Shown one piece after another: positions 58,923 through 63,853 of a stretch of DNA of 64,000 bases. Made by a program: the position numbers and the translations under genes. Under the pieces are notes generated by a model. That model worked only from the letters and a program-made list of their open reading frames with translations, was not told the DNA's origin and made no database searches. The DNA comes from Mesaphorura yosii (lineage: Eukaryota; Arthropoda; Collembola; Poduromorpha; Tullbergiidae), in assembly GCA_009869945.1 (NCBI GenBank), contig WIXG01000328.1, forward strand, positions 23,852 through 87,851, in the 5' to 3' direction. The stretch's first letter is position 1, and every line of letters begins with the position of its first letter.

Positions 58923-60131
58923 TTATGTCGTTGAGAGCAGCAGAATAGTTTTATCAATGACTGCATTCCAGAAATGAAGGACACTTTGTTGATCCACTAT
59001 AAATGATCCTGAACCAACTGCAACCTGAATGGGACGCAAAGAACGATATACACGCACCATCAACTTAGCCTCGATGATTTCAGATCTCATTGGACGCCAT
59101 CTGGCGAGTACTTCTCGTGAAGAGCTATACAAATTCGCAAAGTGACCTAGTATGAATGATGAAAGAAAACCACTGACCAACGCGATGAGAAATGCTACCA
59201 AACGGTCTAAATGCGGAATGGTTGAGTCACAAACGAAATAATGACCAAAGATTGTAAAGAGATAGAGTGAAGATGTGATGAATGAGTAGAAAGTTGTCAT
59301 CCATTGAATTTGTAATGTCAAAGTGCAATGTAAGGCTCGATAAATATGTGCTAAGGATAGGAAAGTACCTCTCCTGACATTTTTATAGATTTTGAACTCC
59401 AAAAAGTAGCTGGCTGTCCCGAATACAGTGACGAATATCGTGATCAAAGCGTTGAATAGCACAAAGTCAATGAGGAGTGAGTAAATGAATACCAGCATAG
59501 TGATTATGTTGATGGCATTCAGCTGCCATGTGGAAGGAGCGGCAAAATTCAAACTGAATAATCTGAGTACGACCTGGACTTCGAGTAATGACTCCTGAAG
59601 AATTATGAGCACTGCGTTGTTGTAGGCGATGAAAGCGATTAGCAGAGCAAATGGAAGGATCCATGTGGTACCCAGTTGCAGTGCACGGAGAATCTTCCTT
59701 AAGTGAACTCCATGGCTACGATCCTCCACCAAGTCTTCAAAGTGTCCATCATCCACACGACGTTCGTACAAGGCCAAGGCAGAGTTCACATAGAAAGCGA
59801 CGAGGAGGGAGTCCGAACCCCAGCCGAAAAGATACTCTGCATACACAAAGATTCCATTGCCAAAGAATGCAATGATAAGAAAGCCAGCCACTTCCTTTGG
59901 TATTCGATCCTGTAGCCAGAGTCCTATGCTTAAGCAGTTGGTGTAGGCGAGGATGCTCTGAACGGCAATACGGAACACGACATTCGCCCAGAACCTGAAT
60001 CGTAGTCGAGTGCTCGTGACGAAACCCAGTCGGTGCAAACGGGCACTATAGCCAAGAGGAAGCACTCCTAATTTTGTGGATAGTCGGAGAGCGAAACGCA
60101 AATATTGAAGAGTTTCAGACTCCAGCAACAT
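58923..60131 (-). CDS. Gustatory-receptor-type chemoreceptor, 402 aa
   Basis: An intronless receptor beginning MLLESETLQYLRFALRLSTK. Hydrophobic segments include VVFRIAVQSILAYTNCLSIG, EVAGFLIIAFFGNGIFVYAE, WILPFALLIAFIAYNNAVLI, NIITMLVFIYSLLIDFVLF and LVAFLIALVSGFLSSFILGH. It ends SLRPIQVAVGSGSFIVDQQS, then VLHFWNAVIDKTILLLSTT, closely matching the C-terminal layout of the receptor at 18728 (FWDVVVNNAIELLLL). Its N-terminus is likewise similar to that receptor. It is likely a chemosensory channel with unknown ligand. Confidence 0.78.
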   Translation of the reverse strand: MLLESETLQYLRFALRLSTKLGVLPLGYSARLHRLGFVTSTRLRFRFWANVVFRIAVQSILAYTNCLSIGLWLQDRIPKEVAGFLIIAFFGNGIFVYAEYLFGWGSDSLLVAFYVNSALALYERRVDDGHFEDLVEDRSHGVHLRKILRALQLGTTWILPFALLIAFIAYNNAVLIILQESLLEVQVVLRLFSLNFAAPSTWQLNAINIITMLVFIYSLLIDFVLFNALITIFVTVFGTASYFLEFKIYKNVRRGTFLSLAHIYRALHCTLTLQIQWMTTFYSFITSSLYLFTIFGHYFVCDSTIPHLDRLVAFLIALVSGFLSSFILGHFANLYSSSREVLARWRPMRSEIIEAKLMVRVYRSLRPIQVAVGSGSFIVDQQSVLHFWNAVIDKTILLLSTT

Positions 60132-61257
60132 TTTGTAACAGTGTTCAACTGTGGCTGTCTAAGATTCTCATATCGCAACAATATGGCTGAAGAATCAGCA
60201 AATGCCAGCTTATGACTTAATTTCATAGAGAATTCAAAAGCTAATCTCGCAAAGAGTACGTTTACTATTCATGATAAATTATTTTCACCTTTTGAATTCA
60301 GTTCGCCTTTCAAAAGAAATCTTTACGAATTCACTCTAGTTAATAAAACGCACATTGCTACATCGAAAATACAATTTTGTAGTACTTCAACAAATGACTT
60401 TCATCATGAAGTCATTTAGAAGGATTGCTAAGACGACCTTCGTTCCTTGTGATTGTATGTTTGTCAATAAAGTGGATGAAGAAATGAATGTATGCATGAT
60501 GAAATGAATACTTGAGACAATGTTTAAGCCTATTGAGTTCCATATAGTTCCAGATTGCCTTCTTTCCTTCCCATCTAACGAATTTAATGGACATAATGTG
60601 ATGTCTCTTAATGGAGTATGCTTCACCAAGTGACCAATCGTCCTTCATCCTTTATTAGCACATCGTAATGTGCTTATGCATTCGCAATTCTCTGTCTGTC
60701 TGTCTGTCTGTCTGTGTTTATTTTTGAAACATAATTGGACACTGCTTCATGAATTCAGATGAAAAGGTGTTGAAGGTCGAGCTTCTCGCTTCTCAATAGA
60801 TTCGAGTGGTGACAGCACTTACGAAGCATGAGATAAAATGGTAAAATCAGATACAGTAGAGTTGAATTTGCAGCATGGTTGTAAAACGGACGAGGACAAA
60901 TAGAGCCAAACTCGCAGCGAACGAAGCAATTCATACTCGGCATTTTCTGTGTTCCGCCGATATTAATATGGAATGTATGCAGCAATAACTGTCCCTCATC
61001 TTTTCTATTTAGCATTGGAAGCTGTATATGACTTTGGAAGGTGGGTGGCAGCGGAAAAAGCAAAATGCATTGGGCACGTGCGAATTGCGCTATGTTTATA
61101 GGAAATTATAGGAGCCAATTTTCGAATGCCTGACATTACTGAAAACAATGACAATGAAGCATAGCGAAGCATGTCTACGTTAGTTTAATTCAATGACTGT
61201 CCCTAAAAAATGGCTTCCAAGATTTTAGATGTGCTTATTGGGTTCATGACTATCATG
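60132..61257. other. Intergenic, no gene recognised
   Basis: AT-rich sequence. A reverse-strand frame at 60755-61063 is open for 102 codons but shows no family or signal peptide. A CTGT microsatellite lies at 60691-60715. Confidence 0.45.
60691..60715 (+). repeat. CTGT tetranucleotide microsatellite
   Basis: About six consecutive CTGT (TGTC) units. No functional implication is seen. Confidence 0.9.
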
Positions 61258-61657: not shown

Positions 61658-63853
61658 ATGCCCGTCCCTGGGTTACTCCCTGTGTTCCACTTAGCTTTCG
61701 TGTTCATTTCCGTGGCCCTGCTGCCTTCTGTCTCAGGAAAGATTCTCACAGACTGCGAGTTCGCCACCAAGCTCCACGACGAACTGGATGGCAAGGATCT
61801 CGAAGCCTGGGACCAACTTGGAGACTGGGTTTGTATTGTGGATGGCTCAGATGGCATTAACACGTCACGCGTCAGGCAGTCGTCCCTCAACTCATTCAGT
61901 AAAAGCTACGGTGTGTTCAGAGTCAACAACCAGTGGTGGTGCCAAGACGAGTCGTCTCACGTCAATCCGGATTTCACGAACTCGTGCAAAGTGAACTGCA
62001 CTGATCTTCTGGACGAAGACCTCTCAGACGACATTCGCTGTGCACTGGTAATCAAAAAGGAGCAATCATTCGCCGCGTGGGATCGTTGGACGAACAAGTG
62101 CAAGGGAAAGAATCTGGATGAGTACCGGTTCTTGGACAACTGTTCGGTCACACCACAGCCGAGTGGGCCCGTGATTATCAGGGAACATCTGAACATCACG
62201 TTCACAGATGGCGAGAGCAACAAGTACATTGATTGCCGAGCCAATGGGACGCCAGCGCCAAACATCAGCTGGGAGCAGATCGCGCTTTCCGAGCTGAGGG
62301 TCGAAGCCTTGCCCGGTTCTCTATCCCGACTAATTTTCCCCAAAGTCAAGTCGTACTATACTGGGCCATTTACGTGCGTTGCGAAAAATTTCAAGGGAAA
62401 AGCAAATCAAACTTACTACCTTCACGTGAAGCCTGGGTCTGAAAGCTCGGCAGATGGCGCGATCACGTACGGGCTTGCGATTGGGCTGCCGCTCCTAATC
62501 TTGGCAGGATTCGCTGCTTCTGCATTCTACTACTTTAGAAGAATCCTGCTCAAGCTGAATGGGCTCTCGGATGCTGAGATTCGTGAGTTTCTGCAAGGGG
62601 ATCCTGAACGACTCAAGCAGGCTGGTGGTGACGGTAGGGACTCAGGACAAGCGCGCCCTCTACACGAGAACATTCACTACCAACCTTACAACAAGGAGTT
62701 TGACATTCCGAAGGGCAAGCTCAATTGTGACAAAACACGAATCCTGGGTGAGGGTCAGTACGGGTTTGTGACGATGGCGGAGCTGGAGGGCGTTTCCGTC
62801 GCAGTGAAAGCCGTCAAACCTCACACAGACAAAATGTACATCAAGGCACTGCTCACTGAACTTAAGATAATGATCCATCTTGGCAAGAATCCGAACATCG
62901 TGGGTCTCATCGGAGCCGTCACCAATGAATTGGATAAAGGTATACATGTACATGCAGCTGATCTATAATTTATAATGGACGTCGGGCGCTAAATTCAAAC
63001 TTTGATTCTGTTCTCAGGTCAACTGTTGATCGTGGTCGAATTCTGTGAACTTGGTGACCTTCAGAACTACTTGCGGAAACGGAAACAGTGCTTCGTGCCA
63101 GAACCAGGACAAAGTGGGGATGGGGATGAAAACAAGGGCACAAACATAGAAATGCAGTAAGTGCGTTAATTTTAACCGGCAAATAAATAATTGCTAGATT
63201 TGCTGTTGAATTTTGTCTGACCATAGAGAATATGCCGACACAGCATCAATCACGACTGTTCACCTAATCACATGGTGCAGGCAGATCGCACGAGGAATGG
63301 GGTACCTCGAGTCAAAGAACGTTATTCACGGTGATTTGGCTGCCCGGAACGTTCTTCTCACGTTAAGCCTTCAGGCTAAGATCACTGACTTTGGTCTGTC
63401 CCGACAATTGTACGACTACACTAACTACGTAAAGAAACAGCAGGCTCCGCTTCCGTGGCGGCACATGGCTATTGAGTCTCTGCGTGAAATGAGTTTCTCG
63501 ACCGAGTCTGACGTGTGGGCGTACGGTGTGACAATGTGGGAGGTGTTCAGCATGGGAGACGTGCCATATCCGGGTCGGTCATGGTCACTGGACTTTGTTC
63601 ATGAACTGGAGAATGGGATGCGGCTTCTGCAACCTAAGAATGCACCGGACCACATGTAAGAAAATATCATTTAACTTTTCTACTGTTACTGGAACCCGTG
63701 AACATGATTTTCATTCAAATTTTCAGATATGAGATAATGAAGTCATGCTGGAGCTGCAGCAAGTACGCGCGACCTGCATTCCAGTACCTCGTCGCTCAGC
63801 TGGGAGCGTTCACGGACGGCGAGAGCACCAGTACCGGTGATCTTCAATCTTAG
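61658..63853 (+). CDS. Receptor tyrosine kinase with lysozyme-like and Ig ectodomain, four exons, 658 aa
   Basis: Exons 61658-62939, 63018-63156, 63227-63655 and 63727-63853 join in consistent phases to a TAG. A signal peptide (1-27) is followed by a C-type lysozyme-like domain (28-165): KILTDCEFATKLHDEL, LGDWVCIVDGSDGINTS, SYGVFRVNNQWWC, NSCKVNC, IRCALVIKK, WDRWTNKCKG. All eight lysozyme cysteines are present (33, 59, 95, 110, 114, 128, 148, 162). Positions of hen Glu35 and Asp52 are Ser64 and Ser83, so no muramidase activity is expected. One Ig domain (C193-C240), a transmembrane helix (about 267-293) and a kinase domain (from about 350) follow: GEGQYGFV, VAVKAVK, HGDLAARNVLL (HGD instead of HRD), DFGLSR, SDVWAYGVTMWEVFSMG. 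It is probably an active receptor kinase sensing an extracellular glycan or protein. Confidence 0.88.

Follow-up and report, generated by a model that had tools for sequence, protein, structure and literature searches.

A gene of the springtail Mesaphorura yosii joins, in a single chain, a signal peptide, an ectodomain, one transmembrane helix and a tyrosine kinase – the makeup of a receptor tyrosine kinase – and the outer part of that ectodomain is a C-type lysozyme. Comparison of the sequences shows fusion of lysozyme and kinase, loss of both catalytic residues from the lysozyme, retention of its cysteines and cleft tryptophans, intact kinase motifs, further copies in the same genome, and exchange of ectodomains among related kinases. 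Lysozyme-kinases may represent a kind of microbe or glycan sensor not yet described from animals.

The gene lies on the forward strand of the window (the whole stretch of 64,000 nucleotides that was analysed). It is modelled as four exons separated by GT-AG introns, with exon joins set by homology, and its spliced translation is 658 amino acids long. The features, with the evidence for each, are as follows.

61658..63853, + strand: complete coding sequence, from start codon through stop codon, of the lysozyme-Ig receptor tyrosine kinase (spliced translation)
61658..62939, + strand: exon 1, with signal peptide, lysozyme, Ig, transmembrane and juxtamembrane parts and kinase N-lobe in one open frame (open reading frame and spliced translation)
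63018..63156, + strand: exon 2 (spliced translation)
63227..63655, + strand: exon 3 (spliced translation)
63727..63853, + strand: exon 4, including the stop (spliced translation)
61658..61738, + strand: predicted signal peptide, residues 1-27, hydrophobic stretch about 5-23 (hydropathy; cleavage site inferred)
61739..62152, + strand: C-type lysozyme domain, residues 28-165 (PF00062, 81.2 bits; PDB lysozymes, 8.3e-23)
61847..61849, + strand: Ser64, at the position of catalytic Glu35 (alignments)
61904..61906, + strand: Ser83, at the position of catalytic Asp52 (alignments)
61937..61939, + strand: Trp94, equivalent of hen Trp63 in the sugar cleft, kept (alignment)
62078..62080, + strand: Trp141, equivalent of hen Trp108 in the sugar cleft, kept (alignment)
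62177..62428, + strand: Ig (I-set) domain, residues 174-257 (PF07679, 25.0 bits, cut-off 23.7)
62456..62536, + strand: single transmembrane helix, about residues 267-293 (hydropathy, with the hydrophobic segment at about 265-293)
62735..63802, + strand: tyrosine kinase domain, residues 360-642, across four exons, with kinase insert (PF07714, 263.1 bits; motifs VAVK, HGDLAARN, DFG)

A sequence-only reading had proposed this order of parts, and Pfam together with hydropathy bears it out, just as the four-exon model reproduces the limits given there for the gene (61658-63853) and its first exon (61658-62939). The domain search which that reading had offered as a check placed PF00062, I-set and PK_Tyr_Ser-Thr all above cut-off: the lysozyme profile covers residues 28-156 (E 9.2e-23; 81.2 bits against a cut-off of 27), and I-set clears its threshold (25.0 against 23.7) while the remaining Ig models fall below their own. 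In a phmmer search of the PDB the top matches to the lysozyme part were dog milk lysozyme (8.3e-23) and horse milk lysozyme (2e-22). The predicted mature start, Lys28, is the same as in lysozymes, and the eight conserved cysteines claimed earlier are all present in the alignment, where the window row is complete. The loop LLDEDLSDD has, by eye, a likeness to the calcium loop of alpha-lactalbumin. Two AlphaFold predictions reached mean pLDDT values of 39.2 and 40.5, too low for a usable model, as their alignments comprised no more than 6 and 5 sequences. Elsewhere in the window, at 58923-60158 on the reverse strand, an open frame of 411 amino acids with many hydrophobic stretches has, by eye, the look of an insect-type gustatory receptor; an Rfam search of the window returned zero matches.

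A critical issue is whether the fusion is real. The gene ends 147 bases from the end of contig C328 (87851 bases) and its exon joins rest on homology, circumstances that would favour a chimaeric assembly or a wrong gene model. Against this, the part from lysozyme to kinase N-lobe lies in a single exon, as the sequence-only reading had stated and the uninterrupted frame 61658-62939 confirms, and the fusion is therefore independent of splice guesses. Moreover, locus C297 repeats the same arrangement, and at C346, C535 and C313 single frames hold the C-terminal part of the lysozyme together with a transmembrane segment and the kinase. A close relative, P0001 (441 amino acids, with PF00062 and PF07714), is encoded on an independently assembled public contig; its frame continues into the first intron, as does that of the window gene, and that contig is thus genomic DNA and no transcript proof. 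Since six further loci and this independent contig carry the fusion, misassembly is excluded. Seven loci and P0001 rule out a chimaeric assembly or annotation artefact for the fusion, and the chance that an error of assembly or gene model lies behind the gene is in our estimate very slight.

The six further loci emerged when the 93 Mb genome of the animal, in 1127 contigs, was searched with the PF00062 profile and with individual lysozyme domains and the DNA around the matches was read. At C297, C346, C535, C313, C176 and C966 a lysozyme precedes a transmembrane segment and a kinase of this type, all on one strand. An Ig domain accompanies the lysozyme in C297, C346 and C176, as in the window gene (C328). 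In C535, C313 and C966 no Ig is recognised and the lysozyme is the only recognised ectodomain, although the reading of C966 is incomplete: the DNA examined there includes neither the first exon of the lysozyme nor the kinase C-lobe, and the contig starts just upstream. All seven fused lysozyme parts exceed the Pfam cut-off, with PF00062 scores as follows.

C328 (window gene): 81.2 bits
C297: 80.0 bits
C346: 74.9 bits
C313: 74.6 bits
C176: 74.2 bits
C535: 71.9 bits
C966: 67.7 bits

Broken copies also occur. C549 is truncated, with a lysozyme (64.5 bits) and part of an Ig domain before a stop, and no kinase was found in the 7.7 kb downstream; C1060 is a lone exon fragment.

Beyond this genome, a first search of public sequences gave a single match to the fusion among 33 candidates. 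In a second search, with 8000 candidates scored, the five matches were P0001 and four lysozymes of vertebrates. A third, again with 8000 scored, gave six (E <= 1e-20): P0001, the multi-Ig VEGFR/PDGFR-like kinase P0006 and four kinases belonging to other families. All such searches required shared 5-residue words, took in no more than the leading 500 residues where no region had been named, and were limited in length; within that reach the fusion was not found in other named species. No description of a receptor tyrosine kinase with a lysozyme ectodomain was found in the literature searched, which left preprints and most subscription papers outside. In the published account of the Folsomia genome the words 'kinase' and 'lysozyme' are both absent from the main text, and PMC11999971 and PMC3623868 are unrelated to the architecture.

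Whether the lysozyme could still cut was judged from an alignment of 14 rows: the seven fused domains, P0001, C549, the free lysozymes C167 and C1114 of this genome, P0002, P0003 and hen lysozyme. None of the nine fusion-group rows, P0001 and C549 among them, retains Glu35 (the residues there are S, L, S, H, A, A, A, L and C), and none retains Asp52 (Glu in C313); the replacement by Ser64 and Ser83 reported from the window gene alone is therein confirmed. Both residues are kept in the five other rows. An active lysozyme on a stalk is ruled out by the loss of the pair in 9/9 rows. Fusions are not the only genes to have lost Asp52, because C118, a kinase-free lysozyme outside the alignment, seems by eye to keep Glu and to have no Asp; another free lysozyme, C1:552k, keeps both (by eye). 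No cysteine is missing from a fusion-group row that includes the exon concerned. All 9/9 rows retain Trp108 and 8/9 retain Trp63, with His in C313. The position of Trp62 holds Trp in four rows, Tyr, Phe or His in four and a gap in one, and Asp101 is kept in none, being absent also from both free lysozymes of this genome.

There are parallels among known relatives. SLLP1 has lost both catalytic residues and, in mouse, has a lysozyme-like glycan groove; it acts in sperm-egg binding, and among SLLP1/LYZL proteins no sites tolerate change less than 63 and 108 (PMC5104373). The catalytic pair is lost in part from an insect lysozyme-like protein (PMC1559613). With the C-type lysozyme family (PF00062, GH22), above all its dead members – SLLP1/SPACA3, LYZL4, alpha-lactalbumin and insect lysozyme-like proteins – the window gene has in common the eight cysteines, the profile, Trp63 and Trp108, and with SLLP1 the loss of both catalytic residues; several fused copies share intron places with the family. 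The dead lysozymes are secreted or membrane-tethered without a kinase, whereas that of the window gene is the ectodomain of a receptor kinase.

Introns point to how the fusion arose. The free lysozyme C167 has three: phase 1 in the codon of Trp28, phase 0 after GIFQ, and phase 1 two codons past Cys80, the boundaries of lysozyme loci being assigned by homology. All three recur at matching places and phases in C346, C176 and C966, the first two in C535, and the first and third in C313. Because five fused copies share these places, a lysozyme gene with introns was joined to the kinase. C328, C297 and C549 have zero lysozyme introns, probably through later loss on the branch that led to the window gene. 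A branch of weak support (60/72; present in 58% of 200 bootstrap trees) sets off the fusion group in the lysozyme tree.

The two sides of the membrane differ in tempo. Between the window gene and P0001 identity is 96.3% in the signal peptide, 74.6% in the lysozyme, 75.3% in the Ig, 98.9% in the transmembrane and juxtamembrane part and 93.1% in the N-lobe; against C297 the figures are 50.0% (lysozyme), 49.5% (Ig), 60.2% (transmembrane and juxtamembrane) and 76.2% (kinase). Only dN is usable, because dS could not be computed in four of six comparisons and exceeded 1.7 in the other two; for the lysozyme part of C328 against C297 it is 0.39, with synonymous sites saturated. Read from these alignments, the ligand side evolves faster, yet the pattern is the one expected of a protein that selection maintains. 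Gene conversion confined to the kinase part may also have produced the pattern between the window gene and P0001.

The kinase itself carries an intact glycine-rich loop, VAVK with the catalytic Lys, HGDLAARN and DFG, motifs from which activity is predicted. The first PDB row was an EGFR chain, whose score derives from two copies of the kinase; the best full-length kinase matches were PDGFRA, CSF1R, KIT, FLT3 and VEGFR. With PDGFR, KIT, CSF1R and FLT3 and with VEGFR/Pvr it shares kinase similarity, a split kinase and a single transmembrane helix. The PDGFR/VEGFR class (III/V), however, has five or seven Ig domains where the window gene has one lysozyme and one Ig, and HRD in the catalytic loop where the window gene has HGD. 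In this the 15 kinases compared, 14 with HGD and one with HAD at the site where HRD is usual, resemble non-RD kinases.

A whole-protein search of the genome gave 84 matches at at least about 63 separate kinase places by hand count (67 of 333 candidates scored), some of which may be other tyrosine kinases; C966 is missing from these matches because of the share of candidates scored. Ectodomains were classified at 41 loci, 39 of them from DNA. Seven are the lysozyme loci, and the others are listed by contig, with the slice in brackets.

Kelch, six: C578 (L023), C1099 (L024), C539 (L025), C732 (L027), C654 (L030), C487 (L044); Pfam run on C578 and C487, the other four called from genome Kelch matches and by eye
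CLCA, five: C37 (L026), C185 (L029), C387 (L031), C610, C604; PF08434 2.5-4.0 kb upstream of the kinase on the same strand, provisionally assigned by that proximity, C610 and C604 from profile matches only
Subtilase, three: C789 (L041), C646 (L043), C981 (L051); PF00082, 99.5, 125.1 and 104.7 bits
Antifungal-peptide knottins (PF11410, cut-off 22), two, next to the membrane: C280 (L036 1540-1820), two stretches, 38 bits; C634 (L052), 28.7 bits
EB module: C553, 25.8 bits, cut-off 24.3
EB-like cysteine-rich, by eye: C727, C799, C486
LDLa: C454
Ig-type, eleven, by eye: C328 (6.3-9.0 kb), C285, C636, C1083, C508, C651, C489, C618, C259, C611, C251
No class given: C992 (L050), with a large cysteine-rich ectodomain on which all Pfam models fell below cut-off, and C147

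Judged by eye, none of the subtilase ectodomains has all its catalytic motifs unaltered (GIGT and GTN; GTD; GQGT), and the subtilase kinases are possibly a second case of a disabled enzyme as ectodomain. The knottin spacing C-x6-C-x8-CC-x3-C-x10-C fits that of the springtail Alo peptides (PMC10051947); such knottins, like the 2-oxoglutarate oxygenase genes of this genome that by eye contain introns, agree with a collembolan source. Kelch matches in the genome number 125, many in frames of 300-450 amino acids that resemble stand-alone proteins.

A tree of 14 kinases, from which C313 (long branch) and C966 (partial) were left out, rejects a single clade of the five lysozyme-bearing kinases (p-AU 0.0005), in a test that presumes a group named beforehand, an earlier kinase tree having been seen. 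C346 and C535 group with five Kelch kinases in a seven-row group (100/99). In the earlier tree three of the kinases with CLCA form a clade (100/100). Rejection of a single Kelch clade was not reached (p-AU 0.071). The polyphyly of the lysozyme-bearing kinases thus indicates that ectodomains were exchanged during the radiation, with no direction assignable; a single origin may hold for the lysozyme domains although it does not for the kinases that bear them. Architecture and catalytic loss as first read have stood, while the view of a single gene has widened to a radiation with exchanged ectodomains. We advance tentatively, and with slightly less than even confidence, that a VEGFR/PDGFR-type kinase radiated and repeatedly took up secreted folds (dead lysozyme, defective subtilase, antifungal knottin, CLCA, Kelch propeller, EB module), forming a fast-changing panel of microbe sensors that would be an animal counterpart of the plant receptor-kinase repertoire.

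What, then, does the ectodomain recognise? We give about an even chance to the proposition that the tethered pseudo-lysozyme binds a GlcNAc-type glycan and signals by tyrosine phosphorylation. Its cleft would hold a GlcNAc-containing glycan (fragments of peptidoglycan or chitin) without cutting it; a multivalent glycan would gather receptors on the membrane; and the gathered kinases would cross-phosphorylate, setting off a response in defence, gut or cuticle. For the Ig domain a part as spacer or as an aid to pairing is conceivable. In favour of a glycan are the union of lysozyme, Ig, transmembrane helix and kinase in one gene, repeated over seven loci and P0001; the loss of Glu35 and Asp52 in 9/9 rows with Trp108 kept in 9/9 and Trp63 in 8/9, two sites that tolerate change poorly in SLLP1/LYZL proteins as well, beside intact kinase motifs; the faster divergence from P0001 of lysozyme and Ig than of the transmembrane and juxtamembrane part and N-lobe; and the intron places shared with a free lysozyme. 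Against it, Trp62 is Trp in only 4/9 and Asp101 is kept in 0/9, and the Kelch, CLCA and Ig ectodomains give no hint of a glycan. The antifungal-peptide fold and altered proteases among the relatives favour a defence role for the set, and not a glycan ligand specifically.

The pseudo-lysozyme might instead bind a protein – a growth factor of the animal's own, a self or gamete partner, a microbial protein – and no glycan, the kinase acting as an ordinary growth-factor receptor; this is the chief competing reading, which we consider possible but less likely. Protein partners are known for catalytically dead relatives, alpha-lactalbumin and SLLP1 being examples. The kinase resembles PDGFR, KIT and VEGFR, receptors of protein ligands, and the lysozyme and Ig parts diverge equally, as if both face the ligand; the role of SLLP1 in sperm-egg binding points the same way (PMC5104373). 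However, the cleft tryptophans are kept, and a protein-binding surface need not keep them. It is also conceivable, and in our judgement unlikely, that the lysozyme is a passive spacer or relic, with Ig and kinase doing the work, or that the gene is a decaying duplicate. Three fused loci without Ig and the many copies suggest that some may be redundant, and C549 and C1060 are indeed broken; yet the cysteines are kept wherever the exon is present, lysozyme dN is 0.39 between C328 and C297 (synonymous sites saturated), and C535, C313 and C966 have the lysozyme as their only recognised ectodomain.

The proposed glycan-binding pseudo-lysozyme has analogues. In the receptor PGRPs of insects the fold of a wall-degrading enzyme has become a non-cutting receptor ectodomain, and the pseudo-lysozyme would relate to lysozyme as these do to amidase PGRPs; their fold is nonetheless that of an amidase, without a kinase, and not homologous to the lysozyme-kinases. 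Plant LysM and other receptor-like kinases place an extracellular recognition module on a membrane kinase, in an expanded set with a non-RD loop. They are, however, Ser/Thr kinases with unrelated ectodomains, and the likeness is one of convergence only.

Animal innate immunity is described in terms of Toll/TLR, PGRP, lectin and NLR-like receptors, and receptor tyrosine kinases are regarded as receptors of growth factors whose ectodomains change little. Catalytically dead lysozymes have been described, and so have receptor kinases that read glycans; what appears to be a new variation is their combination, along with the swapping of ectodomains on a single kinase module in an animal. Secreted folds mounted on one kinase module, a catalytically stripped lysozyme among them, would constitute a new route from effector to sensor, and the sensing of peptidoglycan or chitin by an animal tyrosine kinase is directly testable with the 138-residue domain.

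A separate observation concerns DIOX_N, with 12 matches in the genome. By eye, the frames on C614, C382 and C722 look intron-bearing, resembling isopenicillin-synthase-type oxygenases described in springtails; that on C759 is intronless (L046-L049).
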